From: Phorcus lineatus | Taxonomy: Eukaryota > Mollusca > Gastropoda > Trochida > Trochidae | Direction: 5' to 3' | Assembly: GCA_921293015.1 (NCBI GenBank) | Contig: OV121083.1 | Span: 33,348,908-33,412,907, forward strand | Length of the DNA stretch: 64,000 bases | In this document: positions 38,760-64,000 of the stretch, in pieces | How positions within the stretch are numbered: the stretch's first letter is position 1 | How the letters are laid out: every line of letters begins with the position of its first letter | Position numbers and translations under genes: made by a program | Notes under the pieces: generated by a model | Database searches by the model: none | The model's input: the letters and a program-made list of their open reading frames with translations, nothing else | What the model was told of the DNA's origin: nothing

Positions 38760-38914
38760 TCAACCTAAACTTGTACCCCACGACCATCTACCAGCTATAT
38801 TGCTTAACGCCTGGCTGAACATCAACTTCCTTAACCCTTAAGCCTTCCCTACAAAACTTATTTATTTTCTCTTTACTGATTACTACATCAACGCCTTCCA
38901 TTTCCTAAACATTC

Positions 38915-38931
38915 GACAGTTGTAGACTGTC
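38915..38931. other. Short perfect hairpin in the array spacer (first unit)
   Basis: GACAGT-TGTAG-ACTGTC forms a 6-bp stem with a 5-base loop. It is kept in nearly every unit, once altered to GATTGTC before unit 15. Function unknown; it could be incidental. Confidence 0.5.
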
Positions 38932-39142
38932 ATTTTTCCTTGAAGGGCAGTTTCCTTCCCTTTCAATTGTGTTGCCAGTGTAACATCCAACACTTCAACA
39001 TTAAAGATTGAAACAAACAGTGTTTGAGTCGACCTCAACCTGTACCCCACGACCATCTCAATCAAACACAGACATACATCTGAGAAAACAGTGCTGCTTT
39101 GGCGGAGGGCTCATGCTTCTGCGTGTGCTTCTGTGTGTCGGT

Positions 39143-39149
39143 TATATAA
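39143..39149 (+). promoter_or_regulatory. TATA-like motif upstream of tRNA-Leu (first unit)
   Basis: TATATAA lies about 100 bp upstream of the Leu gene and is repeated in every unit. A second AT-rich motif, TATTTAA, lies 18-24 bp upstream (39223-39229). Pol III tRNA genes can use upstream TATA-like sequences, but promoters here should be mainly the internal A and B boxes, so both are weak calls. Confidence 0.3.
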
Positions 39150-39246
39150 TCAAATGACATGTGTCCCAGAGCAATTGAAACGCAAGGAAAGAAAACTTTT
39201 ATCTTGCCGATTGTGACATCAGTATTTAAACCCTTTTGTTTCACAA

Positions 39247-39368
39247 GTCAGGATGGCCGAGCGGTCTAAGGCGCCAGACTCAAGGATTGAGCTATTCCTT
39301 CTCACAAATCGAGATATGGGTGTTCTGGTCCACGTATGTGGGCGTGGGTTCAAATCCCACTCCTGACA
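39247..39368 (+). tRNA. tRNA-Leu(CAA), unit 1
   Basis: Mature tRNA is 39247-39284 plus 39323-39368 (84 nt); the intron is 39285-39322 (38 nt) after position 37. Acceptor GTCAGGA/TCCTGAC is fully paired with discriminator A. The anticodon stem is CCAGA/TCTGG around CTCAAG, giving anticodon CAA, and there is a long variable arm as in class II tRNAs. Box B is GGTTCAAATCC. Position 32 C can pair with intron base -3 G, the pairing used by the splicing endonuclease. Reference sequence for the other copies. Confidence 0.96.
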
Positions 39369-39370
39369 CA

Positions 39371-39387
39371 TTTTGCATTTCCTTTTT
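39371..39387 (+). terminator. Pol III terminator of tRNA-Leu (first unit)
   Basis: TTTT at 39371-39374, 2 bases after the mature 3' end, and a backup TTTTT at 39383-39387. Both are conserved in the other units. Confidence 0.8.
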
Positions 39388-39485
39388 ATCGCCACCGGAT
39401 TACATGAAACTTAAAGCTTAAGGACTTCCAGTTTTCTAGGCAGCACTGAAGCAAAGAGCTGGGCTTCTTTTTTGTTCTTTTCATT

Positions 39486-39504
39486 TGTCAAAAGAGTTGC
39501 AAAA
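39486..39504 (-). terminator. Pol III terminator of tRNA-Tyr (first unit)
   Basis: On the minus strand TTTT runs occur at 39501-39504, 3 bases after the tRNA, and at 39490-39493. Unit 14 has lost 9 bp here but keeps the proximal TTTT. Confidence 0.75.
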
Positions 39505-39507
39505 TGT

Positions 39508-39600
39508 TCCCGCGAGCCGGATTCGAACCAGCGACCTAAGGATGGCCAATTGTGGTTATTCCACTACAGTCCTCCGCTCTACCAACTGAGCTATCACGGG
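39508..39600 (-). tRNA. tRNA-Tyr(GUA), unit 1
   Basis: Read on the minus strand: exon 1 39600-39564 (37 nt), intron 39563-39544 (20 nt), exon 2 39543-39508 (36 nt), giving a 73-nt tRNA. Acceptor CCCGTGA/TCGCGGG has one T-G pair; discriminator A. D arm GCTC/GAGC, anticodon GTA followed by G37, box B GGTTCGAATCC. C32 can pair with intron base -3 G. The intron has an ACC variant instead of ATC. Confidence 0.96.
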
Positions 39601-40105
39601 TCTCGACTACTCCCGTTCATCTTTTGTAAATCGATACAGGACGACACTTACAGCTATATTGCTTAACGCCTGGCTGAACATCAACTTCCTTAACCCTTAA
39701 GCCTTCCCTACAAAACTTATTTATTTTCTCTTTACTGATTACTACATCAACGCCTTCCATTTCCTAAACATTCGACAGTTGTAGACTGTCATTTTTCCTT
39801 GAAGGGCAGTTTCCTTCCCTTTCAATTGTGTTGCCAGTGTAACATCCAACACTTCAACATTAAAGATTGAAACAAACAGTGTTTGAGTCGACCTCAACCT
39901 GTACCCCACGACCATCTCAATCAAACACAGACATACATCTGAGAAAACAGTGCTGCTTTGGCGGAGGGCTCATGCTTCTGCGTGTGCTTCTGTGTGTCGG
40001 TTATATAATCAAATGACATGTGTCCCAGAGCAATTGAAACGCAAGGAAAGAAAACTTTTATCTTGCCGATTGTGACATCAGTATTTAAACCCTTTTGTTT
40101 CACAA

Positions 40106-40227
40106 GTCAGGATGGCCGAGCGGTCTAAGGCGCCAGACTCAAGGATTGAGCTATTCCTTCTCACAAATCGAGATATGGGTGTTCTGGTCCACGTATGTGG
40201 GCGTGGGTTCAAATCCCACTCCTGACA
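40106..40227 (+). tRNA. tRNA-Leu(CAA), unit 2
   Basis: Mature sequence and intron identical to unit 1. Confidence 0.95.
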
Positions 40228-40366
40228 CATTTTGCATTTCCTTTTTATCGCCACCGGATTACATGAAACTTAAAGCTTAAGGACTTCCAGTTTTCTAGGC
40301 AGCACTGAAGCAAAGAGCTGGGCTTCTTTTTTGTTCTTTTCATTTGTCAAAAGAGTTGCAAAATGT

Positions 40367-40458
40367 TCCCGCGAGCCGGATTCGAACCAGCGACCTAAGG
40401 ATGGCCATTGTGATTATTCCACTACAGTCCTCCCCTCTACCAACTGAGCTATCACGGG
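40367..40458 (-). tRNA. tRNA-Tyr(GUA), unit 2, D-stem variant
   Basis: C25 is changed to G (CCCCTC for CCGCTC on the plus strand), breaking pair 10-25. Intron 19 nt. Possibly impaired. Confidence 0.85.
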
Positions 40459-40962
40459 TCTCGACTACTCCCGTTCATCTTTTGTAAATCGATACAGGAC
40501 GACACTTACAGCTATATTGCTTAACGCCTGGCTGAACATCAACTTCCTTAACCCTTAAGCCTTCCCTACAAAACCTATTTATTTTCTCTTTACTGATTAC
40601 TACATCAACGTCTTCCATTTCCTAAACATTCGACAGTTGTAGACTGTCATTTTTCCTTGAAGGGCAGTTTCCTTCCCTTTCAATTGTGTTGCCAGTGTAA
40701 CATCCAACACTTCAACATTAAAGATTGAAACAAACAGTGTTTGAGTCGACCTCAACCTGTACCCCACGACCATCTCAATCAAACACAGACATACATCTGA
40801 GAAAACAGTGCTGCTTTGGCGGAGGGCTCATGCTTCTGCGTGTGCTTCTGTGTGTCGGTTATATAATCAAATGACATGTGTCCCAGAGCAATTGAAACGC
40901 AAGGAAAGAAAACTTTTATCTTGCCGATTGTGACATCAGTATTTAACCTTATTGTTTCACAA

Positions 40963-41084
40963 GTCAGGATGGCCGAGCGGTCTAAGGCGCCAGACTCAAG
41001 GATTGAGCTATTCCTTCTCACAAATCGAGATACGGGTGTTCTGGTCCACGTATGTGGGCGTAGGTTCAAATCCCACTCCTGACA
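40963..41084 (+). tRNA. tRNA-Leu(CAA), unit 3, A51 variant
   Basis: The T stem reads GTAGG instead of GTGGG, an A-C mismatch next to box B. The intron has TACGGG for TATGGG. Confidence 0.88.
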
Positions 41085-41223
41085 CATTTTGCATTTCCTT
41101 TTTATCGCCACCGGATAACATGAAACTTAAAGCTTAAGGACTTCCAGTTTTCTAGGCAGCACTGAAGCAAAGAGCTGGGCTTCTTTTTTGTTCTTTTTAT
41201 TTGTCAAAAGAGTTGCAAAAGGT

Positions 41224-41316
41224 TCCCGCGAGCCGGATTCGAACCAGCGACCTAAGGATGGCCAATTATGATTATTCCACTACAGTCCTCCGCTCTACCA
41301 ACTGAGCTATCACGGG
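41224..41316 (-). tRNA. tRNA-Tyr(GUA), unit 3
   Basis: Intact mature sequence; 20-nt intron with one private change (ATTATG on the plus strand). Confidence 0.94.
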
Positions 41317-41820
41317 TCTCGACTACTCCCGTTCATCTTTTGTAAATCGATACAGGACGACACTTACAGCTATATTGCTTAACGCCTGGCTGAACATCAA
41401 CTTCCTTAACCCTTAAGCCTTCCCTACAAAACCTATTTATTTTCTCTTTACTGATTACTACATCAACGTCTTCCATTTCCTAAACATTCGACAGTTGTAG
41501 ACTGTCATTTTTCCTTGAAGGGCAGTTTCCTTCCCTTTCAATTGTGTTGCCAGTGTAACATCCAACACTTCAACATTAAAGATTGAAACAAACAGTGTTT
41601 GAGTCGACCTCAACCTGTACCCCACGACCATCTCAATCAAACACAGACATACATCTGAGAAAACAGTGCTCCTTTGGCGGAGGGCTCATGCTTCTGCGTG
41701 TGCTTCTGTGTGTCGGTTATATAATCAAATGACATGTGTCCCAGAGCAATTGAAACGCAAGGAAAGAAAACTTTTATCTTGCCGATTGTGACATCAGTAT
41801 TTAACCTTTTTGTTTCACAA

Positions 41821-41942
41821 GTCAGGATGGCCGAGCGGTCTAAGGCGCCAGACTCAAGGATTGAGCTATTCCTTCTCACAAATCGAGATATGGGTGTTCT
41901 GGTCCACGTATGTGGGCGTGGGTTCAAATCCCACTCCTGACA
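41821..41942 (+). tRNA. tRNA-Leu(CAA), unit 4
   Basis: Intact, as unit 1. Confidence 0.95.
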
Positions 41943-42081
41943 CATTTTGCATTTCCTTTTTATCGCCACCGGATTACATGAAACTTAAAGCTTAAGGACT
42001 TCCAGTTTTCTAGGCAGCACTGAAGCAAAGAGCTGGGCTTCTTTTTTGTTCTTTTCATTTGTCAAAAGAGTTGCAAAAGGT

Positions 42082-42173
42082 TCCCGCGAGCCGGATTCGA
42101 ACCAGCGACCTAAGGATGGCCATTGTGATTATTCCACTACAGTCCTCCGCTCTACCAACTGAGCTATCACGGG
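42082..42173 (-). tRNA. tRNA-Tyr(GUA), unit 4
   Basis: Intact; 19-nt intron (CCATTG form). Confidence 0.94.
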
Positions 42174-42677
42174 TCTCGTCTACTCCCGTTCATCTTTTGT
42201 AAATCGATACAGGACGACACTTACAGCTATATTGCTTAACGCCTGGCTGAACATCAACTTCCTTAACCCTTAAGCCTTCCCTACAAAACTTATTTATTTT
42301 CTCTTTACTGATTACTACATCAACGCCTTCCATTTCCTAAACATTCGACAGTTGTAGACTGTCATTTTTCCTTGAAGGACAGTTTCCTTCCCTTTCAATT
42401 GTGTTGCCAGTGTAACATCCAACACTTCAACATTAAAGATTGAAACAAACAGTGTTTGAGTCGACCTCAACCTGTACCCCACGACCATCTCAATCAAACA
42501 CAGACATACATCTGAGAAAACAGTGCTGCTTTGGCGGAGGGCTCATGCTTCTGCGTGTGCTTCTGTGTGTCGGTTATATAATCAAATGACATGTGTCCCA
42601 GAGCAATTGAAACGCAAGGAAAGAAAACTTTTATCTTGCCGATTGTGACATCAGTATTTAACCCTTTTGTTTCACAA

Positions 42678-42799
42678 GTCAGGATGGCCGAGCGGTCTAA
42701 GGCGCCAGACTCAAGGATTGAGCTATTCCTTCTCACAAATCGAGATATGGGTGTTCTGGTCCACGTATGTGGGCGTGGGTTCAAATCCCACTCCTGACA
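42678..42799 (+). tRNA. tRNA-Leu(CAA), unit 5
   Basis: Intact, as unit 1. Confidence 0.95.
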
Positions 42800-42938
42800 C
42801 ATTTTGCATTTCCTTTTTATCGCCACCGGATTACATGAAACTTAAAGCTTAAGGACTTCCAGTTTTCTAGGCAGCACTGAAGCAAAGAGCTGGGCTTCTT
42901 TTTTGTTCTTTTCATTTGTCAAAAGAGTTGCAAAATGT

Positions 42939-43030
42939 TCCCTCGAGCCGGATTCGAACCAGCGACCTAAGGATGGCCATTGTGATTATTCCACTACAGT
43001 CCTCCGCTCTACCAACTGAGCTATCACGGG
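42939..43030 (-). tRNA. tRNA-Tyr(GUA), unit 5, A69 variant
   Basis: CCCTCGAG replaces CCCGCGAG on the plus strand, giving a G4-A69 mismatch in the acceptor stem. 19-nt intron. Confidence 0.87.
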
Positions 43031-43534
43031 TCTCGACTACTCCCGTTCATCTTTTGTAAATCGATACAGGACGACACTTACAGCTATATTGCTTAACGCC
43101 TGGCTGAACATCAACTTCCTTAACCCTTAAGCCTTCCCTACAAAACTTATTTATTTTCTCTTTACTGATTACTACATCAACGTCTTCCATTTCCTAAACA
43201 TTCGACAGTTGTAGACTGTCATTTTTCCTTGAAGGGCAGTTTCCTTCCCTTTCAATTGTGTTGCCAGTGTAACATCCAACACTTCAACATTAAAGATTGA
43301 AACAAACAGTGTTTGAGTCGACCTCAACCTGTACCCCACGACCATCTCAATCAAACACAGACATACATCTGAGAAAACAGTGCTGCTTTGGCGGAGGGCT
43401 CATGCTTCTGCGTGTGCTTCTGTGTGTCGGTTATATAATCAAATGACATGTGTCCCAGAGCAATTGAAACGCAAGGAAAGAAAACTTTTATCTTGCCGAT
43501 TGTGACATCAGTATTTAACCCTTTTGTTTCACAA

Positions 43535-43656
43535 GTCAGGATGGCCGAGCGGTCTAAGGCGCCAGACTCAAGGATTGAGCTATTCCTTCTCACAAATCGA
43601 GAAATGGCTGTTCTGGTCCACGTATGTGGGCGTGGGTTCAAATCCCACTCCTGACA
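43535..43656 (+). tRNA. tRNA-Leu(CAA), unit 6, intron variant
   Basis: The mature part is intact, but the intron ends ...AAATGGCTG instead of ...ATATGGGTG, changing intron base -3 from G to C. This removes the expected pair with C32 and might hinder 3' splice-site cutting. Confidence 0.9.
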
Positions 43657-43795
43657 CATTTTGCATTTCCTTTTTATCGCCACCGGATTACATGAAACTT
43701 AAAGCTTAAGGACTTCCAGTTTTCTAGGCAGCACTGAAGCAAAGAGCTGGGCTTCTTTTTTGTTCTTTTCATTTGTCAAAAGAGTTGCAAAATGT

Positions 43796-43887
43796 TCCCG
43801 CGAGCCGGATTCGAACCAGCGACCTAAGGATGGCCATTGTGATTATTCCACTACAGTCCTCCGCTCTACCAACTGAGCTATCACGGG
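43796..43887 (-). tRNA. tRNA-Tyr(GUA), unit 6
   Basis: Intact; 19-nt intron. Confidence 0.94.
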
Positions 43888-44391
43888 TCTCGACTACTCC
43901 CGTTCATCTTTTGTAAATCGATACAGGACGACACTTACAGCTATATTGCTTAACGCCTGGCTGAACATCAACTTCCTTAACCCTTAAGCCTTCCCTACAA
44001 AACTTATTTATTTTCTCTTTACTGATTACTACATCAACGCCTTCCATTTCCTAAACATTCGACAGTTGTAGACTGTCATTTTTCCTTGAAGGGCAGTTTC
44101 CTTCCCTTTCAATTGTGTTGCCAGTGTAACATCCAACACTTCAACATTAAAGATTGAAACAAACAGTGTTTGAGTCGACCTCAACCTGTACCCCACGACC
44201 ATCTCAATCAAACACAGACATACATCTGAGAAAACAGTGCTGCTTTGGCGGAGGGCTCATGCTTCTGCGTGTGCTTCTGTGTGTCGGTTATATAATCAAA
44301 TGACATGTGTCCCAGAGCAATTGAAACGCAAGGAAAGAAAACTTTTATCTTGCCGATTGTGACATCAGTATTTAACCCTTTTGTTTCACAA

Positions 44392-44513
44392 GTCAGGATG
44401 GCCGAGCGGTCTAAGGCGCCAGACTCAAGGATTGAGCTATTCCTTCTCACAAATCGAGATATGGGTGTTCTGGTCCACGTATGTGGGCGTGGGTTGAAAT
44501 CCCACTCCTGACA
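44392..44513 (+). tRNA. tRNA-Leu(CAA), unit 7, G56 variant
   Basis: GGTTGAAATCC replaces GGTTCAAATCC. C56 is almost invariant: it pairs with G19 and is a key base of box B. Probably non-functional. Confidence 0.82.
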
Positions 44514-44652
44514 CATTTTGCATTTCCTTTTTATCGCCACCGGATTACATGAAACTTAAAGCTTAAGGACTTCCAGTTTTCTAGGCAGCACTGAAGCAAA
44601 GAGCTTGGCTTCTTTTTTGTTCTTTTCATTTGTCAAAAGAGTTGCAAAATGT

Positions 44653-44745
44653 TCCCGCGAGCCGGATTCGAAACAGCGACCTAAGGATGGCCAATTGTGA
44701 TTATTCCACTACAGTCCTCCGCTCTACCAACTGAGCTATCACGGG
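44653..44745 (-). tRNA. tRNA-Tyr(GUA), unit 7, T53 variant
   Basis: G53 is changed to T (GAAACAGCG for GAACCAGCG on the plus strand), breaking the near-invariant 53-61 pair in box B. 20-nt intron. Probably impaired, as is the Leu in the same unit. Confidence 0.82.
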
Positions 44746-45249
44746 TCTCGACTACTCCCGTTCATCTTTTGTAAATCGATACAGGACGACACTTACAGCT
44801 ATATTACTTAACGCCTGGCTGAACATCAACTTCCTTAACCCTTAAGCCTTCCCTACAAAACTTATTTATTTTCTCTTTACTGATTACTACATCAACGTCT
44901 TCCATTTCCTAAACATTCGACAGTTGTAGACTGTCATTTTTCCTTGAAGGGCAGTTTCCTTCCCTTTCAATTGTGTTGCCAGTGTAACATCCAACACTTC
45001 AACATTAAAGATTGAAACAAACAGTGTTTGAGTCGACCTCAACCTGTACCCCACGACCATCTCAATCAAACACAGACATACATCTGAGAAAACAGTGCTG
45101 CTTTGGCGGAGGGCTCATGCTTCTGCGTGTGCTTCTGTGTGTCGGTTATATAATCAAATGACATGTGTCCCAGAGCAATTGAAACGCAAGGAAAGAAAAC
45201 TTTTATCTTGCCGATTGTGACATCAGTATTTAACCCTTTTGTTTCACAA

Positions 45250-45371
45250 GTCAGGATGGCCGAGCGGTCTAAGGCGCCAGACTCAAGGATTGAGCTATTC
45301 CTTCTCACAAATCGAGATATGGGTGTTCTGGTCCACGTATGTGGGCGTGGGTTCAAATCCCACTCCTGACA
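45250..45371 (+). tRNA. tRNA-Leu(CAA), unit 8
   Basis: Intact; the flank has GGATAACATG rather than GGATTACATG. Confidence 0.95.
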
Positions 45372-45510
45372 CATTTTGCATTTCCTTTTTATCGCCACCG
45401 GATAACATGAAACTTAAAGCTTAAGGACTTCCAGTTTTCTAGGCAGCACTGAAGCAAAGAGCTTGGCTTCTTTTTTGTTCTTTTCATTTGTCAAAAGAGT
45501 TGCAAAAGGT

Positions 45511-45603
45511 TCCCTCGAGCCGGATTCGAACCAGCGACCTAAGGATGGCCAATTGTGGTTATTCCACTACAGTCCTCCGCTCTACCAACTGAGCTATCAC
45601 GGG
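45511..45603 (-). tRNA. tRNA-Tyr(GUA), unit 8, A69 variant
   Basis: G4-A69 mismatch; 20-nt intron with the ACC form seen in unit 1. Confidence 0.87.
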
Positions 45604-46107
45604 TCTCGTCTACTCCCTTTCATCTTTTGTAAATCGATACAGGACGACACTTACAGCTATATTGCTTAACGCCTGGCTGAACATCAACTTCCTTAACCCT
45701 TAAGCCTTCCCTACAAAACCTATTTATTTTCTCTTTACTGATTACTACATCAACGTCTTCCATTTCCTAAACATTCGACAGTTGTAGACTGTCATTTTTC
45801 CTTGAAGGGCAGTTTCCTTCCCTTTCAATTGTGTTGCCAGTGTAACATCCAACACTTCAACATTAAAGATTGAAACAAACAGTGTTTGAGTCGACCTCAA
45901 CCTGTACCCCACGACCATCTCAATCAAACACAGACATACATCTGAGAAAACAGTGCTGCTTTGGCGGAGGGCTCATGCTTCTGCGTGTGCTTCTGTGTGT
46001 CGGTTATATAATCAAATGACATGTGTCCCAGAGCAATTGAAACGCAAGGAAAGAAAACTTTTATCTTGCCGATTGTGACATCAGTATTTAACCCTTTTGT
46101 TTCACAA

Positions 46108-46229
46108 GTCAGGATGGCCGAGCGGTCTAAGGCGCCAGACTCAAGGATTGAGCTATTCCTTCTCACAAATCGAGATATGGGTGTTCTGGTCCACGTATGT
46201 GGGCGTGGGTTGAAATCCCACTCCTGACA
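46108..46229 (+). tRNA. tRNA-Leu(CAA), unit 9, G56 variant
   Basis: Same C56-to-G change as unit 7. Confidence 0.82.
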
Positions 46230-46368
46230 CATTTTGCATTTCCTTTTTATCGCCACCGGATTACATGAAACTTAAAGCTTAAGGACTTCCAGTTTTCTAG
46301 GCAGCACTGAAGCAAAGAGCTTGGCTTCTTTTTTGTTCTTTTCATTTGTCAAAAGAGTTGCAAAATGT

Positions 46369-46461
46369 TCCCGCGAGCCGGATTCGAAACAGCGACCTAA
46401 GGATGGCCAATTGTGATTATTCCACTACAGTCCTCCGCTCTACCAACTGAGCTATCACGGG
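46369..46461 (-). tRNA. tRNA-Tyr(GUA), unit 9, T53 variant
   Basis: Same G53-to-T change as unit 7, followed by the same TATATTACTTAACG spacer variant, so units 7 and 9 are recent copies of each other. Confidence 0.82.
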
Positions 46462-46965
46462 TCTCGACTACTCCCGTTCATCTTTTGTAAATCGATACAG
46501 GACGACACTTACAGCTATATTACTTAACGCCTGGCTGAACATCAACTTCCTTAACCCTTAAGCCTTCCCTACAAAACTTATTTATTTTCTCTTTACTGAT
46601 TACTACATCAACGTCTTCCATTTCCTAAACATTCGACAGTTGTAGACTGTCATTTTTCCTTGAAGGGCAGTTTCCTTCCCTTTCAATTGTGTTGCCAGTG
46701 TAACATCCAACACTTCAACATTAAAGATTGAAACAAACAGTGTTTGAGTCGACCTCAACCTGTACCCCACGACCATCTCAATCAAACACAGACATACATC
46801 TGAGAAAACAGTGCTGCTTTGGCGGAGGGCTCATGCTTCTGCGTGTGCTTCTGTGTGTCGGTTATATAATCAAATGACATGTGTCCCAGAGCAATTGAAA
46901 CGCAAGGAAAGAAAACTTTTATCTTGCCGATTGTGACATCAGTATTTAACCCTTTTGTTTCACAA

Positions 46966-47087
46966 GTCAGGATGGCCGAGCGGTCTAAGGCGCCAGACTC
47001 AAGGATTGAGCTATTCCTTCTCACAAATCGAGATATGGGTGTTCTGGTCCACGTATGTGGGCGTAGGTTCAAATCCCACTCCTGACA
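46966..47087 (+). tRNA. tRNA-Leu(CAA), unit 10, A51 variant
   Basis: T-stem GTAGG; unchanged intron. Confidence 0.88.
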
Positions 47088-47226
47088 CATTTTGCATTTC
47101 CTTTTTATCGCCACCGGATTACATGAAACTTAAAGCTTAAGGACTTCCAGTTTTCTAGGCAGCACTGAAGCAAAGAGCTGGGCTTCTTTTTTGTTCTTTT
47201 CATTTGTCAAAAGAGTTGCAAAATGT

Positions 47227-47318
47227 TCCCGCGAGCCGGATTCGAACCAGCGACCTAAGGATGGCCATTGTGATTATTCCACTACAGTCCTCCGCTCTAC
47301 CAACTGAGCTATCACGGG
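47227..47318 (-). tRNA. tRNA-Tyr(GUA), unit 10
   Basis: Intact; 19-nt intron. Confidence 0.94.
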
Positions 47319-47822
47319 TCTCGACTACTCCCGTTCATCTTTTGTAAATCGATACAGGACGACACTTACAGCTATATTGCTTAACGCCTGGCTGAACATC
47401 AACTTCCTTAACCCTTAAGCCTTCCCTACAAAACTTATTTATTTTCTCTTTACCGATTACTACATCAACGCCTTCCATTTCCTAAACATTCGACAGTTGT
47501 AGACTGTCATTTTTCCTTGAAGGGCAGTTTCCTTCCCTTTCAATTGTGTTGCCAGTGTAACATCCAACACTTCAACATTAAAGATTGAAACAAACAGTGT
47601 TTGAGTCGACCTCAACCTGTACCCCACGACCATCTCAATCAAACACAGACATACATCTGAGAAAACAGTGCTGCTTTGGCGGAGGGCTCATGCTTCTGCG
47701 TGTGCTTCTGTGTGTCGGTTATATAATCAAATGACATGTGTCCCAGAGCAATTGAAACGCAAGGAAAGAAAACTTTTATCTTGCCGATTGTGACATCAGT
47801 ATTTAACCCTTTTGTTTCACAA

Positions 47823-47944
47823 GTCAGGATGGCCGAGCGGTCTAAGGCGCCAGACTCAAGGATTGAGCTATTCCTTCTCACAAATCGAGATATGGGTGTT
47901 CTGGTCCACGTATGTGGGCGTGGGTTCAAATCCCACTCCTGACA
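47823..47944 (+). tRNA. tRNA-Leu(CAA), unit 11
   Basis: Intact; GGATAACATG flank. Confidence 0.95.
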
Positions 47945-48083
47945 CATTTTGCATTTCCTTTTTATCGCCACCGGATAACATGAAACTTAAAGCTTAAGGA
48001 CTTCCAGTTTTCTAGGCAGCACTGAAGCAAAGAGCTTGGCTTCTTTTTTGTTCTTTTCATTTGTCAAAAGAGTTGCAAAAGGT

Positions 48084-48176
48084 TCCCGCGAGCCGGATTC
48101 GAACCAGCGACCTAAGGATGGCCAATTGTGATTATTCCACTACAGTCCTCCGCTCTACCAACTGAGCTATCACGGG
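48084..48176 (-). tRNA. tRNA-Tyr(GUA), unit 11
   Basis: Intact; 20-nt intron. Confidence 0.94.
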
Positions 48177-48680: not shown

Positions 48681-48802
48681 GTCAGGATGGCCGAGCGGTC
48701 TAAGGCGCCAGACTCAAGGATTGAGCTATTCCTTCTCACAAATCGAGATATGGGTGTTCTGGTCCACGTATGTGGGCGTAGGTTCAAATCCCACTCCTGA
48801 CA
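48681..48802 (+). tRNA. tRNA-Leu(CAA), unit 12, A51 variant
   Basis: T-stem GTAGG; together with unit 13 it repeats the variant pattern of units 10-11. Confidence 0.88.
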
Positions 48803-54070: not shown

Positions 54071-54163
54071 TCCCGCGAGCCGGATTCGAACCAGCGACCT
54101 AAGGATGGCCAATTGTGATTATTCCACTACAGTCCTCCGCTCTACCAACTGAGCTATCACGGG
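54071..54163 (-). tRNA. tRNA-Tyr(GUA), unit 18
   Basis: Intact; 20-nt intron. Confidence 0.94.
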
Positions 54164-54667: not shown

Positions 54668-54789
54668 GTCAGGATGGCCGAGCGGTCTAAGGCGCCAGAC
54701 TCAAGGATTGAGCTATTCCTTCTCACAAATCGAGATATGGGTGTTCTGGTCCACGTATGTGGGCGTAGGTTGAAATCCCACTCCTGACA
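54668..54789 (+). tRNA. tRNA-Leu(CAA), unit 19, A51 and G56 double variant
   Basis: Carries both recurring T-arm changes (GTAGGTTGAAATCC), a combination seen in no other unit. Probably non-functional and a likely conversion product. Confidence 0.8.
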
Positions 54790-54928
54790 CATTTTGCATT
54801 TCCTTTTTATCGCCACCGGATTACATGAAACTTAAAGCTTAAGGACTTCCAGTTTTCTAGGCAGCACTGAAGCAAAGAGCTGGGCTTCTTTTTTGTTCTT
54901 TTCATTTGTCAAAAGAGTTGCAAAATGT

Positions 54929-55020
54929 TCCCGCGAGCCGGATTCGAACCAGCGACCTAAGGATGGCCATTGTGATTATTCCACTACAGTCCTCCGCTCT
55001 ACCAACTGAGCTATCACGGG
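54929..55020 (-). tRNA. tRNA-Tyr(GUA), unit 19
   Basis: Intact; 19-nt intron. Confidence 0.94.
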
Positions 55021-55524
55021 TCTCGACTACTCCCGTTCATCTTTTGTAAATCGATACAGGACGACACTTACAGCTATATTGCTTAACGCCTGGCTGAACA
55101 TCAACTTCCTTAACCCTTAAGCCTTCCCTACAAAACTTATTTATTTTCTCTTTACTGATTACTACATCAACGTCTTCCATTTCCTAAACATTCGACAGTT
55201 GTAGACTGTCATTTTTCCTTGAAGGGCAGTTTCCTTCCCTTTCAATTGTGTTGCCAGTGTAACATCCAACACTTCAACATTAAAGATTGAAACAAACAGT
55301 GTTTGAGTCGACCTCAACCTGTACCCCACGACCATCTCAATCAAACACAGACATACATCTGAGAAAACAGTGCTGCTTTGGCGGAGGGCTCATGCTTCTG
55401 CGTGTGCTTCTGTGTGTCGGTTATATAATCAAATGACATGTGTCCCAGAGCAATTGAAACGCAAGGAAAGAAAACTTTTATCTTGCCGATTGTGACATCA
55501 GTATTTAACCCTTTTGTTTCACAA

Positions 55525-55646
55525 GTCAGGATGGCCGAGCGGTCTAAGGCGCCAGACTCAAGGATTGAGCTATTCCTTCTCACAAATCGAGATATGGGTG
55601 TTCTGGTCCACGTATGTGGGCGTGGGTTGAAATCCCACTCCTGACA
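55525..55646 (+). tRNA. tRNA-Leu(CAA), unit 20, G56 variant
   Basis: C56 changed to G; same haplotype as units 7 and 9. Confidence 0.82.
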
Positions 55647-55785
55647 CATTTTGCATTTCCTTTTTATCGCCACCGGATTACATGAAACTTAAAGCTTAAG
55701 GACTTCCAGTTTTCTAGGCAGCACTGAAGCAAAGAGCTTGGCTTCTTTTTTGTTCTTTTCATTTGTCAAAAGAGTTGCAAAATGT

Positions 55786-55878
55786 TCCCGCGAGCCGGAT
55801 TCGAAACAGCGACCTAAGGATGGCCAATTGTGATTATTCCACTACAGTCCTCCGCTCTACCAACTGAGCTATCACGGG
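55786..55878 (-). tRNA. tRNA-Tyr(GUA), unit 20, T53 variant
   Basis: G53 changed to T; followed by TATATTACTTAACG as in units 7 and 9. Confidence 0.82.
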
Positions 55879-56382
55879 TCTCGACTACTCCCGTTCATCT
55901 TTTGTAAATCGATACAGGACGACACTTACAGCTATATTACTTAACGCCTGGCTGAACATCAACTTCCTTAACCCTTAAGCCTTCCCTACAAAACTTATTT
56001 ATTTTCTCTTTACTGATTACTACATCAACGTCTTCCATTTCCTAAACATTCGACAGTTGTAGACTGTCATTTTTCCTTGAAGGGCAGTTTCCTTCCCTTT
56101 CAATTGTGTTGCCAGTGTAACATCCAACACTTCAACATTAAAGATTGAAACAAACAGTGTTTGAGTCGACCTCAACCTGTACCCCACGACCATCTCAATC
56201 AAACACAGACATACATCTGAGAAAACAGTGCTGCTTTGGCGGAGGGCTCATGCTTCTGCGTGTGCTTCTGTGTGTCGGTTATATAATCAAATGACATGTG
56301 TCCCAGAGCAATTGAAACGCAAGGAAAGAAAACTTTTATCTTGCCGATTGTGACATCAGTATTTAACCCTTTTGTTTCACAA

Positions 56383-56504
56383 GTCAGGATGGCCGAGCGG
56401 TCTAAGGCGCCAGACTCAAGGATTGAGCTATTCCTTCTCACAAATCGAGATATGGGTGTTCTGGTCCACGTATGTGGGCGTGGGTTGAAATCCCACTCCT
56501 GACA
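56383..56504 (+). tRNA. tRNA-Leu(CAA), unit 21, G56 variant
   Basis: C56 changed to G. Confidence 0.82.
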
Positions 56505-56643
56505 CATTTTGCATTTCCTTTTTATCGCCACCGGATTACATGAAACTTAAAGCTTAAGGACTTCCAGTTTTCTAGGCAGCACTGAAGCAAAGAGCTGGGC
56601 TTCTTTTTTGTTCTTTTCATTTGTCAAAAGAGTTGCAAAAGGT

Positions 56644-56736
56644 TCCCTCGAGCCGGATTCGAACCAGCGACCTAAGGATGCCCAATTGTGATTATTCCAC
56701 TACAGTCCTCCGCTCTACCAACTGAGCTATCACGGG
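56644..56736 (-). tRNA. tRNA-Tyr(GUA), unit 21, A69 variant
   Basis: G4-A69 mismatch. Intron base -2 is changed (GCCC for GGCC on the plus strand); the -3 G is kept. Confidence 0.85.
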
Positions 56737-57240
56737 TCTCGTCTACTCCCTTTCATCTTTTGTAAATCGATACAGGACGACACTTACAGCTATATTGCTT
56801 AACGCCTGGCTGAACATCAACTTCCTTAACCCTTAAGCCTTCCCTACAAAACTTATTTATTTTCTCTTTAATGATTACTACATCAACGCCTTCCATTTCC
56901 TAAACATTCGACAGTTGTAGACTGTCATTTTTCCTTGAAGGGCAGTTTCCTTCCCTTTCAATTGTGTTGCCAGTGTAACATCCAACACTTCAACATTAAA
57001 GATTGAAACAAACAGTGTTTGAGTCGACCTCAACCTGTACCCCACGACCATCTCAATCAAACACAGACATACATCTGAGAAAACAGTGCTGCTTTGGCGG
57101 AGGGCTCATGCTTCTGCGTGTGCTTCTGTGTGTCGGTTATATAATCAAATGACATGTGTCCCAGAGCAATTGAAACGCAAGGAAAGAAAACTTTTATCTT
57201 GCCGATTGTGACATCAGTATTTAACCCTTTTGTTTCACAA

Positions 57241-57362
57241 GTCAGGATGGCCGAGCGGTCTAAGGCGCCAGACTCAAGGATTGAGCTATTCCTTCTCACA
57301 AATCGAGATATGGGTGTTCTGGTCCACGTATGTGGGCGTGGGTTCAAATCCCACTCCTGACA
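57241..57362 (+). tRNA. tRNA-Leu(CAA), unit 22
   Basis: Intact. Confidence 0.95.
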
Positions 57363-57501
57363 CATTTTGCATTTCCTTTTTATCGCCACCGGATAACATG
57401 AAACTTAAAGCTTAAGGACTTCCAGTTTTCTAGGCAGCACTGAAGCAAAGAGCTTGGCTTCTTTTTTGTTCTTTTCATTTGTCAAAAGAGTTGCAAAAGG
57501 T

Positions 57502-57594
57502 TCCCGCGAGCCGGATTCGAACCAGCGACCTAAGGATGGCCAATTGTGATTATTCCACTACAGTCCTCCGCTCTACCAACTGAGCTATCACGGG
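57502..57594 (-). tRNA. tRNA-Tyr(GUA), unit 22
   Basis: Intact; 20-nt intron. Confidence 0.94.
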
Positions 57595-58098
57595 TCTCGA
57601 CTACTCCCGTTCATCTTTTGTAAATCGATACAGGACGACACTTACAGCTATATTGCTTAACGCCTGGCTGAACATCAACTTCCTTAACCCTTAAGCCTTC
57701 CCTACAAAACTTATTTATTTTCTCTTTACTGATTACTACATCAACGTCTTCCATTTCCTAAACATTCGACAGTTGTAGACTGTCATTTTTCCTTGAAGGG
57801 CAGTTTCCTTCCCTTTCAATTGTGTTGCCAGTGTAACATCCAACACTTCAACATTAAAGATTGAAACAAACAGTGTTTGAGTCGACCTCAACCTGTACCC
57901 CACGACCATCTCAATCAAACACAGACATACATCTGAGAAAACAGTGCTGCTTTGGCGGAGGGCTCATGCTTCTGCGTGTGCTTCTGTGTGTCGGTTATAT
58001 AATCAAATGACATGTGTCCCAGAGCAATTGAAACGCAAGGAAAGAAAACTTTTATCTTGCCGATTGTGACATCAGTATTTAACCCTTTTGTTTCACAA

Positions 58099-58220
58099 GT
58101 CAGGATGGCCGAGCGGTCTAAGGCGCCAGACTCAAGGATTGAGCTATTCCTTCTCACAAATCGAGATATGGGTGTTCTGGTCCACGTATGTGGGCGTGGG
58201 TTGAAATCCCACTCCTGACA
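58099..58220 (+). tRNA. tRNA-Leu(CAA), unit 23, G56 variant
   Basis: C56 changed to G, here with the GGATAACATG flank that otherwise follows intact Leu copies. Confidence 0.82.
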
Positions 58221-58359
58221 CATTTTGCATTTCCTTTTTATCGCCACCGGATAACATGAAACTTAAAGCTTAAGGACTTCCAGTTTTCTAGGCAGCACTG
58301 AAGCAAAGAGCTTGGCTTCTTTTTTGTTCTTTTCATTTGTCAAAAGAGTTGCAAAATGT

Positions 58360-58452
58360 TCCCGCGAGCCGGATTCGAACCAGCGACCTAAGGATGGCCA
58401 ATTGTGATTATTCCACTACAGTCCTCCGCTCTACCAACTGAGCTATCACGGG
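58360..58452 (-). tRNA. tRNA-Tyr(GUA), unit 23
   Basis: Intact; 20-nt intron. Confidence 0.94.
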
Positions 58453-58957
58453 TCTCGACTACTCCCGTTCATCTTTTGTAAATCGATACAGGACGACACT
58501 TACAGCTATATTGCTTAACGCCTGGCTGAACATCAACTTCCTTAACCCTTAAGCCTTCCCTACAAAACTTATTTATTTTCTCTTTACTGATTACTACATC
58601 AACGTCTTCCATTTCCTAAACATTCGACAGTTGTAGACTGTCATTTTTCTTTGAAGGGCAGTTTTTCTTCCCTTTCAATTGTGTTGCCAGTGTAACATCC
58701 AACACTTCAACATTAAAGATTGAAACAAACAGTGTTTGAGTCGACCTCAACCTGTACCCCACGACCATCTCAATCAAACACAGACATACATCTGAGAAAA
58801 CAGTGCTGCTTTGGCGGAGGGCTCATGCTTCTGCGTGTGCTTCTGTGTGTCGGTTATATAATCAAATGACATGTGTCCCAGAGCAATTGAAACGCAAGGA
58901 AAGAAAACTTTTATCTTGCCGATTGTGACATCAGTATTTAACCCTTTTGTTTCACAA

Positions 58958-59079
58958 GTCAGGATGGCCGAGCGGTCTAAGGCGCCAGACTCAAGGATTG
59001 AGCTATTCCTTCTCACAAATCGAGATATGGGTGTTCTGGTCCACGTATGTGGGCGTGGGTTCAAATCCCACTCCTGACA
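58958..59079 (+). tRNA. tRNA-Leu(CAA), unit 24
   Basis: Intact; preceded by the GCAGTTTTTCTTCCC spacer variant shared only with unit 25. Confidence 0.95.
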
Positions 59080-59218
59080 CATTTTGCATTTCCTTTTTAT
59101 CGCCACCGGATAACATGAAACTTAAAGCTTAAGGACTTCCAGTTTTCTAGGCAGCACTGAAGCAAAGAGCTTGGCTTCTTTTTTGTTCTTTTCATTTGTC
59201 AAAAGAGTTGCAAAAGGT

Positions 59219-59311
59219 TCCCGCGAGCCGGATTCGAACCAGCGACCTAAGGATGGCCAATTGTGATTATTCCACTACAGTCCTCCGCTCTACCAACTGA
59301 GCTATCACGGG
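59219..59311 (-). tRNA. tRNA-Tyr(GUA), unit 24
   Basis: Intact; 20-nt intron. Confidence 0.94.
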
Positions 59312-59816
59312 TCTCGACTACTCCCGTTCATCTTTTGTAAATCGATACAGGACGACACTTACAGCTATATTGCTTAACGCCTGGCTGAACATCAACTTCC
59401 TTAACCCTTAAGCCTTCCCTACAAAACTTATTTATTTTCTCTTTACTGATTACTACATCAACGTCTTCCATTTCCTAAACATTCGACAGTTGTAGACTGT
59501 CATTTTTCTTTGAAGGGCAGTTTTTCTTCCCTTTCAATTGTGTTGCCAGTGTAACATCCAACACTTCAACATTAAAGATTGAAACAAACAGTGTTTGAGT
59601 CGACCTCAACCTGTACCCCACGACCATCTCAATCAAACACAGACATACATCTGAGAAAACAGTGCTGCTTTGGCGGAGGGCTCATGCTTCTGCGTGTGCT
59701 TCTGTGTGTCGGTTATATAATCAAATGACATGTGTCCCAGAGCAATTGAAACGCAAGGAAAGAAAACTTTTATCTTGCCGATTGTGACATCAGTATTTAA
59801 CCCTTTTGTATCACAA

Positions 59817-59938
59817 GTCAGGATGGCCGAGCGGTCTAAGGCGCCAGACTCAAGGATTGAGCTATTCCTTCTCACAAATCGAGATATGGGTGTTCTGGTC
59901 CACGTATGTGGGCGTGGGTTCAAATCCCACTCCTGACA
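59817..59938 (+). tRNA. tRNA-Leu(CAA), unit 25
   Basis: Intact; 5' flank TTGTATCACAA instead of TTGTTTCACAA. Confidence 0.95.
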
Positions 59939-60077
59939 CATTTTGCATTTCCTTTTTATCGCCACCGGATAACATGAAACTTAAAGCTTAAGGACTTCCA
60001 GTTTTCTAGGCAGCACTGAAGCAAAGAGCTGGGCTTCTTTTTTGTTCTTTTCATTTGTCAAAAGAGTTGCAAAAGGT

Positions 60078-60170
60078 TCCCGCGAGCCGGATTCGAACCA
60101 GCGACCTAAGGATGGCCAATTGTGATTATTCCACTACAGTCCTCCGCTCTACCAACTGAGCTATCACGGG
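60078..60170 (-). tRNA. tRNA-Tyr(GUA), unit 25
   Basis: Intact; 20-nt intron. Confidence 0.94.
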
Positions 60171-60674
60171 TCTCGTCTACTCCCGTTCATCTTTTGTAAA
60201 TCGATACAGGACGACACTTACAGCTATATTGCTTAACGCCTGGCTGAACATCAACTTCCTTAACCCTTAAGCCTTCCCTACAAAACTTATTTATTTTCTC
60301 TTTACTGATTACTACATCAACGCCTTCCATTTCCTAAACATTCGACAGTTGTAGACTGTCATTTTTCTTTGAAGGGCAGTTTCCTTCCCTTTCAATTGTG
60401 TTGCCAGTGTAACATCCAACACTTCAACATTAAAGATTGAAACAAACAGTGTTTGAGTCGACCTCAACCTGTACCCCACGACCATCTCAATCAAACACAG
60501 ACATACATCTGAGAAAACAGTGCTGCTTTGGCGGAGGGCTCATGCTTCTGCGTGTGCTTCTGTGTGTCGGTTATATAATCAAATGACATGTGTCCCAGAG
60601 CAATTGAAACGCAAGGAAAGAAAACTTTTATCTTGCCGATTGTGACATCAGTATTTAACCCTTTTGTTTCACAA

Positions 60675-60796
60675 GTCAGGATGGCCGAGCGGTCTAAGGC
60701 GCCAGACTCAAGGATTGAGCTATTCCTTCTCACAAATCGAGATATGGGTGTTCTGGTCCACGTATGTGGGCGTGGGTTCAAATCCCACTCCTGACA
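60675..60796 (+). tRNA. tRNA-Leu(CAA), unit 26
   Basis: Intact; counterpart of unit 15. Confidence 0.95.
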
Positions 60797-60935
60797 CATT
60801 TTGCATTTCCTTTTTATCGCCACCGGATTACATGAAACTTAGAGCTTAAGGACTTCCAGTTTTCTAGGCAGCACTGAAGCAAAGAGCTGGGCTTCTTTTT
60901 TGTTCTTTTCATTTGTCAAAAGAGTTGCAAAATGT

Positions 60936-61027
60936 TCCCTCGAGCCGGATTCGAACCAGCGACCTAAGGATGGCCATTGTGATTATTCCACTACAGTCCT
61001 CCGCTCTACCAACTGAGCTATCACGGG
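60936..61027 (-). tRNA. tRNA-Tyr(GUA), unit 26, A69 variant
   Basis: G4-A69 mismatch; 19-nt intron. Confidence 0.87.
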
Positions 61028-61531
61028 TCTCGTCTACTCCCGTTCATCTTTTGTAAATCGATACAGGACGACACTTACAGCTATATTGCTTAACGCCTGG
61101 CTGAACATCAACTTCCTTAACCCTTAAGCCTTCCCTACAAAACTTATTTATTTTCTCTTTACTGATTACTACATCAACGTCTTCCATTTCCTAAACATTC
61201 GACAGTTGTAGACTGTCATTTTTCCTTGAAGGGCAGTTTCCTTCCCTTTCAATTGTGTTGCCAGTGTAACATCCAACACTTCAACATTAAAGATTGAAAC
61301 AAACAGTGTTTGAGTCGACCTCAACCTGTACCCCACGACCATCTCAATCAAACACAGACATACATCTGAGAAAACAGTGCTGCTTTGGCGGAGGGCTCAT
61401 GCTTCTGCGTGTGCTTCTGTGTGTCGGTTATATAATCAAATGACATGTGTCCCAGAGCAATTGAAACGCAAGGAAAGAAAACTTTTATCTTGCCGATTGT
61501 GACATCAGTATTTAACCCTTTTGTTTCACAA

Positions 61532-61653
61532 GTCAGGATGGCCGAGCGGTCTAAGGCGCCAGACTCAAGGATTGAGCTATTCCTTCTCACAAATCGAGAT
61601 ATGGGTGTTCTGGTCCACGTATGTGGGCGTAGGTTCAAATCCCACTCCTGACA
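61532..61653 (+). tRNA. tRNA-Leu(CAA), unit 27, A51 variant
   Basis: T-stem GTAGG; counterpart of unit 16. Confidence 0.88.
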
Positions 61654-61792
61654 CATTTTGCATTTCCTTTTTATCGCCACCGGATTACATGAAACTTAAA
61701 GCTTAAGGACTTCCAGTTTTCTAGGCAGCACTGAAGCAAAGAGCTGGGCTTCTTTTTTGTTCTTTTCATTTGTCAAAAGAGTTGCAAAATGT

Positions 61793-61884
61793 TCCCGCGA
61801 GCCGGATTCGAACCAGCGACCTAAGGATGGCCATTGTGATTATTCCACTACAGTCCTCCGCTCTACCAACTGAGCTATCACGGG
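61793..61884 (-). tRNA. tRNA-Tyr(GUA), unit 27
   Basis: Intact; 19-nt intron. Confidence 0.94.
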
Positions 61885-62388
61885 TCTCGACTACTCCCGT
61901 TCATCTTTTGTAAATCGATACAGGACGACACTCACAGCTATATTGCTTAACGCCTGGCTGAACATCAACTTCCTTAACCCTTAAGCCTTCCCTACAAAAC
62001 TTATTTATTTTCTCTTTACCGATTACTACATCAACGTCTTCCATTTCCTAAACATTCGACAGTTGTAGACTGTCATTTTTCCTTGAAGGGCAGTTTCCTT
62101 CCCTTTCAATTGTGTTGCCAGTGTAACATCCAACACTTCAACATTAAAGATTGAAACAAACAGTGTTTGAGTCGACCTCAACCTGTACCCCACGACCATC
62201 TCAATCAAACACAGACATACATCTGAGAAAACAGTGCTGCTTTGGCGGAGGGCTCATGCTTCTGCGTGTGCTTCTGTGTGTCGGTTATATAATCAAATGA
62301 CATGTGTCCCAGAGCAATTGAAACGCAAGGAAAGAAAACTTTTATCTTGCCGATTGTGACATCAGTATTTAACCCTTTTGTTTCACAA

Positions 62389-62510
62389 GTCAGGATGGCC
62401 GAGCGGTCTAAGGCGCCAGACTCAAGGATTGAGCTATTCCTTCTCACAAATCGAGATATGGGTGTTCTGGTCCACGTATGTGGGCGTGGGTTCAAATCCC
62501 ACTCCTGACA
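62389..62510 (+). tRNA. tRNA-Leu(CAA), unit 28
   Basis: Intact; counterpart of unit 17. Confidence 0.95.
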
Positions 62511-62649
62511 CATTTTGCATTTCCTTTTTATCGCCACCGGATTACATGAAACTTAAAGCTTAAGGACTTCCAGTTTTCTAGGCAGCACTGAAGCAAAGAG
62601 CTGGGCTTCTTTTTTGTTCTTTTCATTTGTCAAAAGAGTTGCAAAATGT

Positions 62650-62742
62650 TCCCGCGAGCCGGATTCGAAACAGCGACCTAAGGATGGCCAATTGTGATTA
62701 TTCCACTACAGTCCTCCGCTCTACCAACTGAGCTATCACGGG
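62650..62742 (-). tRNA. tRNA-Tyr(GUA), unit 28, T53 variant
   Basis: G53 changed to T; 20-nt intron. Confidence 0.82.
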
Positions 62743-63253
62743 TCTCGTCTACTCCCGTTCATCTTTTGTAAATCGATACAGGACGACACTTACAGCTATA
62801 TTGCTTAACGCCTGGCTGAACATCAACTTCCTTAACCCTTAAGCCTTCCCTACAAAACTTATTTATTTTCTCTTTAAGCTTTACTGATTACTACATCAAC
62901 GTCTTCCATTTCCTAAACATTCGACAGTTGTAGACTGTCATTTTTCCTTGAAGGGCAGTTTCCTTCCCTTTCAATTGTGTTGCCAGTGTAACATCCAACA
63001 CTTCAACATTAAAGATTGAAACAAACAGTGTTTGAGTCGACCTCAACCTGTACCCCACGACCATCTCAATCAAACACAGACATACATCTGAGAAAACAGT
63101 GCTGCTTTGGCGGAGGGCTCATGCTTCTGCGTGTGCTTCTGTGTGTCGGTTATATAATCAAATGACATGTGTCCCAGAGCAATTGAAACGCAAGGAAAGA
63201 AAACTTTTATCTTGCCGATTGTGACATCAGTATTTAACCTTTTTGTTTCACAA

Positions 63254-63375
63254 GTCAGGATGGCCGAGCGGTCTAAGGCGCCAGACTCAAGGATTGAGCT
63301 ATTCCTTCTCACAAATCGAGATATGGGTGTTCTGGTCCACGTATGTGGGCGTGGGTTCAAATCCCACTCCTGACA
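63254..63375 (+). tRNA. tRNA-Leu(CAA), unit 29
   Basis: Intact; six-base flank deletion shared with unit 18. Preceded by a short private insertion (CTCTTTAAGCTTTACTG near 62872). Confidence 0.95.
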
Positions 63376-63507
63376 CATTTTGCATTTCCTTTTTATCGCC
63401 ACCGGATAACATGAAACTTAAGGACTTCCAGTTTTCTAGGCAGCACTGAAGCAAAGAGCTGGGCTTCTTTTTTGTTCTTTTCATTTGTCAAAAGAGTTGC
63501 AAAAGGT

Positions 63508-63600
63508 TCCCGCGAGCCGGATTCGAACCAGCGACCTAAGGATGGCCAATTGTGATTATTCCACTACAGTCCTCCGCTCTACCAACTGAGCTATCACGGG
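63508..63600 (-). tRNA. tRNA-Tyr(GUA), unit 29
   Basis: Intact; 20-nt intron. Last complete tRNA; the window ends in the next unit's spacer. Confidence 0.94.
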
Positions 63601-64000
63601 TCTCGTCTACTCCCGTTCATCTTTTGTAAATCGATACAGGACGACACTTACAGCTATATTGCTTAACGCCTGGCTGAACATCAACTTCCTTAACCCTTAA
63701 GCCTTCCCTACAAAACTTATTTATTTTCTCTTTACTGATTACTACATCAACGCCTTCCATTTCCTAAACATTCGACAGTTGTAGACTGTCATTTTTCCTT
63801 GAAGGGCAGTTTCCTTCCCTTTCAATTGTGTTGCCAGTGTAACATCCAACACTTCAACATTAAAGATTGAAACAAACAGTGTTTGAGTCGACCTCAACCT
63901 GTACCCCACGACCATCTCAATCAAACACAGACATACATCTGAGAAAACAGTGCTGCTTTGGCGGAGGGCTCATGCTTCTGCGTGTGCTTCTGTGTGTCGG

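Follow-up and report, generated by a model that had tools for sequence, protein, structure and literature searches.

Tandem tRNA gene arrays in the gastropod Phorcus lineatus: a Leu(CAA)/Tyr(GUA) array, its counterparts elsewhere in the genome and a LINE that ends inside tRNA genes

A Leu(CAA)/Tyr(GUA) array on contig C5

We analysed a 64,000-nucleotide stretch of the genome of the gastropod Phorcus lineatus (the window; contig C5, positions 33,348,908-33,412,907, in an assembly of 957.8 Mb in 74 contigs), the right-hand part of which is occupied by a tandem array of transfer RNA (tRNA) genes (Table 1). A search with Rfam model RF00005 identified 58 tRNAs in the window, all between positions 39,247 and 63,600: 29 on the forward strand, which read as Leu(CAA), and 29 on the reverse strand, which read as Tyr(GUA). 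The two types alternate strictly and are convergent across the window (139 bp apart in unit 1), in units of 849-865 bp, mostly 857 or 858 bp. Every one of the 58 genes carries an intron after nucleotide 37, of 38 nt in Leu and of 20 nt (or 19 nt) in Tyr. Periodic identity between units ends leftward at position 38,793, and the array fills the rest of the window. A first-pass annotation had described 29 convergent pairs of this composition, with introns in both genes, in units of about 857 bp starting at 38,792; pair content, introns and unit length were borne out, and the start falls within one base of where it had been placed.

The genes carry the signals expected of transcription by RNA polymerase III (Pol III). 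T-run terminators follow 29/29 Leu and 29/29 Tyr genes in the window, a B-box pattern is present in 22/29 Leu and 24/29 Tyr genes and hence absent from some copies, and A boxes were recognised by eye in the first units. Upstream of Leu, the motif TATTTAA occurs in 29/29 window units, beginning about 24 bp upstream in unit 1. ARAGORN in bacterial mode reported none of these tRNAs in the window, a miss that is expected because the genes are eukaryotic and intron-bearing. A search for a second RNA gene hidden in the unit (Rfam, E up to 5) found none, returning just two matches below cut-off, both overlying the Leu gene. The locus is thus a tandem nuclear tRNA gene array, with complete genes arranged head-to-tail, Pol III signals and units that evolve in concert.

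We followed the array 165 kb past the window, reading 120 kb in full, then covering 38 kb (33,532,908 to 33,570,499) by pattern matches alone and reading a further 8 kb. It still continues at 33,578,371, therefore spans at least 190 kb, inserts included, and has its right end further on; the suggestion that it runs past the window holds. The 184-kb stretch made up of the window and the 120 kb read beyond it contains 132 Leu and 135 Tyr genes in units of 844-865 bp, and Leu/Tyr alternation is broken at four places, at each of which an insertion has deleted the start of a Leu gene.

For copy number we turned to pattern searches of the whole genome, in each of which the first 100 places were listed and the counts are bounded by the mismatches allowed. 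The Leu 5' exon pattern, at up to 3 mismatches, gave 181 forward and 6 reverse matches, and all 100 listed fall in the array, which may thus hold up to about 181 Leu copies. The Tyr pattern gave 187 reverse matches and 1 forward, with four (3 reverse, 1 forward) of the 100 listed lying outside the array, so that at most 184 Tyr genes belong to it. Numbers of this order agree with the earlier proposal of a dosage far above ordinary needs.

Exchange between units and the state of the gene copies

Substitutions distinguish the 29 window units at 35 sites. When insertions and deletions (indels) are counted, every unit is different from every other, although some pairs lack substitution differences, and five pairs differ at one column. 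All four gametes are present at 74 of 153 informative site pairs; together with the lack of identical units, these mosaics argue for exchange and conversion among units rather than for one unit copied by the assembler. Over a set of 126 units, from which 5 units with large inserts were excluded, mean identity between units is 99.1% (2000 sampled pairs). The Leu/Tyr units evolve together.

A 5.2-kb insert is found four times in the 184-kb stretch. Its copies have the same two junctions, the left one at unit position 407 and the right one inside Leu, and three of them show 99.5% identity to the first (over 7 kb, flanks included). Identical junctions and this level of identity indicate a single insertion that was multiplied along with the units.

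Long arrays of near-identical units are hard to assemble, and we therefore weighed the possibility that the array is an assembly artefact. The 29 units with no identical pair and with mosaic variants, the variation in unit length, the retrotransposons embedded in the array and its position within a 65-Mb contig all speak against this, and we regard it as extremely improbable.

Within the window, 17/29 Leu and 18/29 Tyr genes have the consensus mature sequence, and in the 184-kb stretch 98/132 and 93/135 do. Among the remaining Leu genes, one is cut by a retrotransposon and one has an indel. The common variants (standard tRNA position numbers, assigned by us) are C56G in 15 Leu genes (7/29 in the window), U38C in 8 and G51A in 6, and, in Tyr, G22A in 9, C69A in 8, G70A in 7 and G53U in 6. 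We take C56G in Leu to be a classical B-box-down change, whereas U38C is presumably mild.

Nucleotide diversity (pi) over the 126 units is 0.0071 in mature parts, 0.0167 in introns, 0.0047 in the 265 bp upstream of Leu and 0.0115 in other spacer; over the 29 window units it is 0.0088 in mature parts and 0.0072 in spacer. The excess of introns over mature parts is a nominal one. Individual copies are thus under little or no constraint, as may be expected where a job is shared among many copies, and this does not demonstrate a function of the array. The low variation of the 265-bp block (Fisher p 0.007 against other spacer) was considered as a feature and dropped, since the block had been picked post hoc and circular-shift tests were borderline (p 0.10 for diversity, 0.08 for shared sites). 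A genome search with a block of about this extent recovered only copies from this array among the best 40 of 187 candidates.

Other tRNA arrays and a LINE that ends in tRNA genes

Large arrays of tRNA genes are not confined to Leu and Tyr. A whole-genome Rfam tRNA search, in which the best 63 of 82,836 candidates were scored, gave 54 hits, all on contig C32, where the interval 44.64-44.76 Mb contains 52. In 80 kb read there, we found 219 copies of intronless Thr(AGU) on one strand, at spacings that mostly alternate between 273 and 361 bp; a 10-kb piece of this array contained 31 tRNAs and matched no other Rfam family.

Pattern matches alone, which leave room for further genes in the units, revealed arrays of three more families. 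Initiator Met has 3 forward and 234 reverse matches in the genome; the 100 listed comprise 91 at C12:36.635-36.685 Mb, spaced mostly by 331 bp, a looser group of 7 at C12:44.79-44.81 Mb and 2 elsewhere. All 33 Trp matches fall within C5:20.93-21.03 Mb, many of them spaced by 526 bp; the query was derived from a copy cut by a retrotransposon, and 29 of the 33 differ from it. Gly(GCC) has 156 forward and 2 reverse matches, and 98 of the 100 listed fall within C9:5.395-5.482 Mb, spaced mostly by 822 bp. Large arrays thus occur in 6/6 tRNA families examined, on contigs C5 (two), C9, C12 and C32. These families are not a random sample: Leu and Tyr were the original finding, Thr was the best-scoring, Met and Trp were picked by hand, and Gly came to light through a retrotransposon copy in such a gene. 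The Leu/Tyr array is therefore one case of a wider layout, and the special emphasis that the first-pass annotation had placed on intron-bearing tRNAs does not survive the presence of intronless Thr(AGU), along with initiator Met, Trp and Gly(GCC), in large arrays.

The 5.2-kb insert in the Leu/Tyr array encodes a reverse transcriptase (RVT_1, E 5e-30) and an endonuclease (Exo_endo_phos, E 4e-8), the latter resembling the apurinic/apyrimidinic endonucleases (APE-like). It is a retrotransposon without long terminal repeats, that is, a long interspersed nuclear element (LINE), with its 3' junction at a fixed target site. A second, related element of 8.6 kb in the same array, 71-82% like the first over the longer aligned pieces (LINE parts alone), has the same 3' junction, after Leu nucleotide 21, and an apparent 13-bp target-site duplication in which an A-run leaves a base or two ambiguous. 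The 5.2-kb LINE also occurs, about 99% identical, in the Thr(AGU) array (C32:44.71-44.74 Mb), where at least five of its 3' ends lie; the two copies read there have a common left junction, and the one 3' junction read falls at about tRNA nucleotide 21. A separate 4.9-kb insert in the Leu/Tyr array (C5:33.5725-33.5774 Mb; L047:2044-6913) matches neither LINE.

The last 350 bases of the LINE have 64 candidate places in the genome, and among the best 40, which were scored, 28 are 96-100% identical and 12 are 74-75% identical. From these 40 we read 20 further 3' junctions, mainly outside the arrays known at that point (3/20 lie in or at them). By eye, the LINE runs into a tRNA gene in 20/20; by script, this was so in 18/20 with a relaxed tRNA caller, against 15/400 shuffles, and in 13/20 with a stricter one, against 6/400. 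In 17 of the 18 called by script, the tRNA sequence picks up again 4-5 nt ahead of the anticodon stem (nucleotide 21/22), As at the junction being assignable to either the LINE tail or the tRNA gene; the exception is a His gene. The anticodons called by script are ACG, AGC, CTC, TAT (with an intron), TCG, TAC, AGG, CAT (initiator Met), TTG, GCC, CGC, GTG and CAA, leaving out of the count one variant of the TAT type that reads TAA. Reading by eye added Trp CCA and a decayed Gln-like copy, and with Thr AGT included, 15 anticodons are represented at LINE ends. Among the best 40 candidates, LINE loci also cluster within 17-115 kb at C37:13.35-13.46, C5:17.46-17.54 and C9:34.68-34.70 Mb, which suggests further tRNA arrays; the Ile(UAU)-type cluster on C37 is probably one. 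That C37 interval has at least 8 LINE ends, and the three read sit in intron-bearing Ile(UAU)-type tRNA genes.

Elements that target tRNA genes have been described in other groups: NeSL-group LINEs specific for tRNA-Pro (NeSL-1_TV), tRNA-Arg and tRNA-Glu (planarian LIN15_SM and LIN25_SM) (PMC4640811), Dada DNA transposons, which sit within tRNA genes at either the A box or the anticodon (PMC8869645), and Dictyostelium TRE elements beside tRNA genes (PMC5911963). The present element differs from these in being an Exo_endo_phos (APE-like) LINE whose 3' ends lie in tRNA genes of 15 anticodons, mostly at one position. As far as the text returned by our literature search extends, we found no account of a single LINE at a common position across many kinds of tRNA gene.

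To the left of the array, decayed pieces of the unit are split by a short insertion (window 38601-38759) that terminates in CAACTCACCTCAACTCACC. Further left, stretches encoding ankyrin-repeat protein lie on the forward strand between 2110 and 20675 (Pfam Ank match in 3/6 stretches tried), and the intervals 10164-11831 and 25810-26320 contain a G-rich minisatellite with 75-100-bp units and strong GC skew and a separate 171-bp tandem repeat in 3 copies.

Table 1. Features of the Leu/Tyr array and its left edge (window positions unless a contig is given)
Feature	Position	Strand	Details
Leu(CAA)/Tyr(GUA) tandem array, units of ~858 bp	38793..64000		29 full pairs and part of a 30th; followed 165 kb past the window
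29 tRNA-Leu(CAA) genes, 38-nt intron, 122 bp each	39247..63375	+	Rfam RF00005, 39.9-49.9 bits
Starts of the Leu genes	39247, 40106, 40963, 41821, 42678, 43535, 44392, 45250, 46108, 46966, 47823, 48681, 49538, 50396, 51245, 52102, 52959, 53817, 54668, 55525, 56383, 57241, 58099, 58958, 59817, 60675, 61532, 62389, 63254		
29 tRNA-Tyr(GUA) genes, 20-/19-nt intron, 92/93 bp	39508..63600 (first 39508-39600, last 63508-63600)	-	Rfam RF00005, 50.4-58.5 bits
Spacer between convergent 3' ends, unit 1	39369..39507		TTTT Pol III terminator just 3' of each gene
Block of 265 bp preceding Leu in unit 1, where spacer varies least	38982..39246	+	Contains TATTTAA; low variation borderline, circular-shift p 0.10
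Decayed unit piece (unit positions 162-216), left of array	38112..38161	+	blastn 87%, E 1e-12
Decayed unit piece (unit positions 221-248)	38571..38598	+	blastn E 2e-4
Short insertion splitting decayed unit	38601..38759		Flanking 13-bp direct repeat, starts 38588 and 38760
Decayed unit piece (unit positions 238-267), array edge	38760..38789	+	blastn E 2e-5
LINE, 5.2-kb insert in Leu/Tyr array	C5:33,422,384-33,427,582 and L018:660-4511		Reverse transcriptase and endonuclease

What the array may be for

A pattern for the 3' half of dispersed Tyr, at up to 2 mismatches, finds four genes in the genome, all of them exact (one on C1, one at C5:23.19 Mb and two on C15), and these are the four places outside the array among the 100 of 188 Tyr matches listed. 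Two of them were compared with the array type: they differ from it at 4/73 mature positions, and their similarity to the array unit is confined to the gene and a few adjacent bases. In the T stem, which in the array type is GCTGG/CCGGC, pair 49-65 is A-U in the dispersed genes against G-C in the array, and pair 50-64 is G-C against C-G, so that pairing is kept. The array Tyr is, judged by its sequence, an isodecoder distinct from the four dispersed Tyr genes seen.

The tandemly repeated tRNA unit of Xenopus is 3.18 kb long and carries eight tRNA genes, Tyr and Leu among them, many families being mixed; that organisation is likewise a tandem array, but with many families per unit as against two here. 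The oocyte-type tandem tRNA genes of Xenopus are described as carrying 5-formylcytosine (5fC) marks and becoming active when the zygotic genome is activated (PMC11500080), and most tRNA genes of zebrafish as lying in highly repetitive clusters on the long arm of chromosome 4, alongside isolated genes (PMC11417395; PMC11075544). Zebrafish early isodecoders come from the repeats, late ones from scattered genes and some from both, and the families that switch include Leu-CAA and Thr-AGT (PMC11417395). Whereas the zebrafish clusters are largely on one chromosome arm, the arrays described here are spread over C5 (two), C9, C12 and C32. The SYY cluster on Arabidopsis chromosome 1, a tandem repeat of tRNA-Ser/Tyr/Tyr, is expressed mainly in root cap cells, most other tissues keeping it silenced; 13/54 of its clustered Tyr genes yield tRNA-like RNAs (pseudogenes), and clustered and dispersed Tyr differ (PMC12308677). 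It shares tandem intron-bearing Tyr genes with the array reported here but differs in being from a plant, smaller and partnered with Ser. Our literature search, so far as its sources were accessible, gave no description of a Leu/Tyr pair array or of nuclear tRNA arrays in molluscs or gastropods.

The reading we favour, to which we give about an even chance, is that the array would provide bulk tRNA supply at one stage or in one tissue, most likely early or in the germline. It is favoured because in zebrafish the tRNAs of the egg derive from repeats whereas isolated genes provide the late isodecoders (PMC11417395), and the germline or early-embryo idea fits both that pattern and the separate Tyr isodecoder of the array. 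A nuclear Pol III tRNA gene array, one of several large ones in the genome, would on this account have spread and been homogenised by unequal exchange and conversion, much like the 5S and 45S ribosomal DNA (rDNA). Its tRNA may be made in bulk where demand is extreme, be it in the growing oocyte, in the early embryo or in another secretory tissue, and other cells would then be served by the few dispersed genes. Several observations weigh against such a division. A separate array isodecoder was seen for Tyr only: 2 dispersed Thr genes are identical to the array type, and over the stretch compared, dispersed initiator Met (2) and Gly (2) genes match those of the arrays. For Leu, dispersed genes could not be told apart from those in the array, one pattern giving array places only among 100 of 168 matches listed and another giving no match. 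Array-type Tyr genes may also lie outside the array beyond the 100 of 188 matches listed, no dedicated search for them having been made. The mature sequence is off consensus in 34/132 Leu and 42/135 Tyr genes, and over the 126 units the variability of mature tRNA does not fall significantly below that of spacer (circular-shift p 0.28).

The array could instead provide most of the Leu(CAA) and Tyr(GUA) tRNA of every cell, in the way that 5S arrays provide 5S rRNA. The four dispersed Tyr genes among the matches listed, set beside up to about 184 array copies, agree with such a housekeeping dosage, as do the array layout shared by several unrelated tRNA families and the match between array and dispersed types of Thr, initiator Met and Gly where compared; the array Tyr isodecoder, unlike the four dispersed Tyr genes seen, and the published link between zebrafish repeats and egg tRNA (PMC11417395) count against it, and we consider it unlikely, though a serious competitor. 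Slightly less likely still in our judgement, but likewise a serious competitor, is the reading that the array is mostly silent and satellite-like, multiplied by unequal exchange without benefit and with most copies in silenced chromatin. The lack of a significant reduction of variation in mature tRNA would be expected in that case, variants at C56, at G53 and in acceptor pairs are common to several units, LINE-broken units were amplified, and the Arabidopsis Ser/Tyr cluster is silenced in most tissues (PMC12308677). Yet the consensus mature sequence is in the majority for both genes, introns are nominally more diverse than mature parts, and pairing is preserved at the T-stem positions where array Tyr and dispersed Tyr differ, which indicates that the array type has evolved as a structured tRNA.

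Taken at its widest, the proposal of bulk early or germline supply would give this snail a separate egg or germline tRNA set, held in mega-arrays of one or two families each on several chromosomes, with its own Tyr isodecoder and its own LINE parasite, whose recognition site would be a single position common to most tRNA genes and not one tRNA family. We put this fuller picture forward tentatively and think it rather less likely than not to hold as a whole. Tandem tRNA arrays were known before in a small number of lineages and, in vertebrates, have been linked to the supply of eggs, and the arrays of this genome resemble the way in which frogs and fish stock their eggs with tRNAs. A LINE that ends at one position in many kinds of tRNA gene offers a handle for finding more arrays, and prompts one to ask what its endonuclease recognises. 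With the six examined families in large arrays and one of them having a distinct isodecoder, the respective roles of array and dispersed genes become directly testable through the Tyr T stem.

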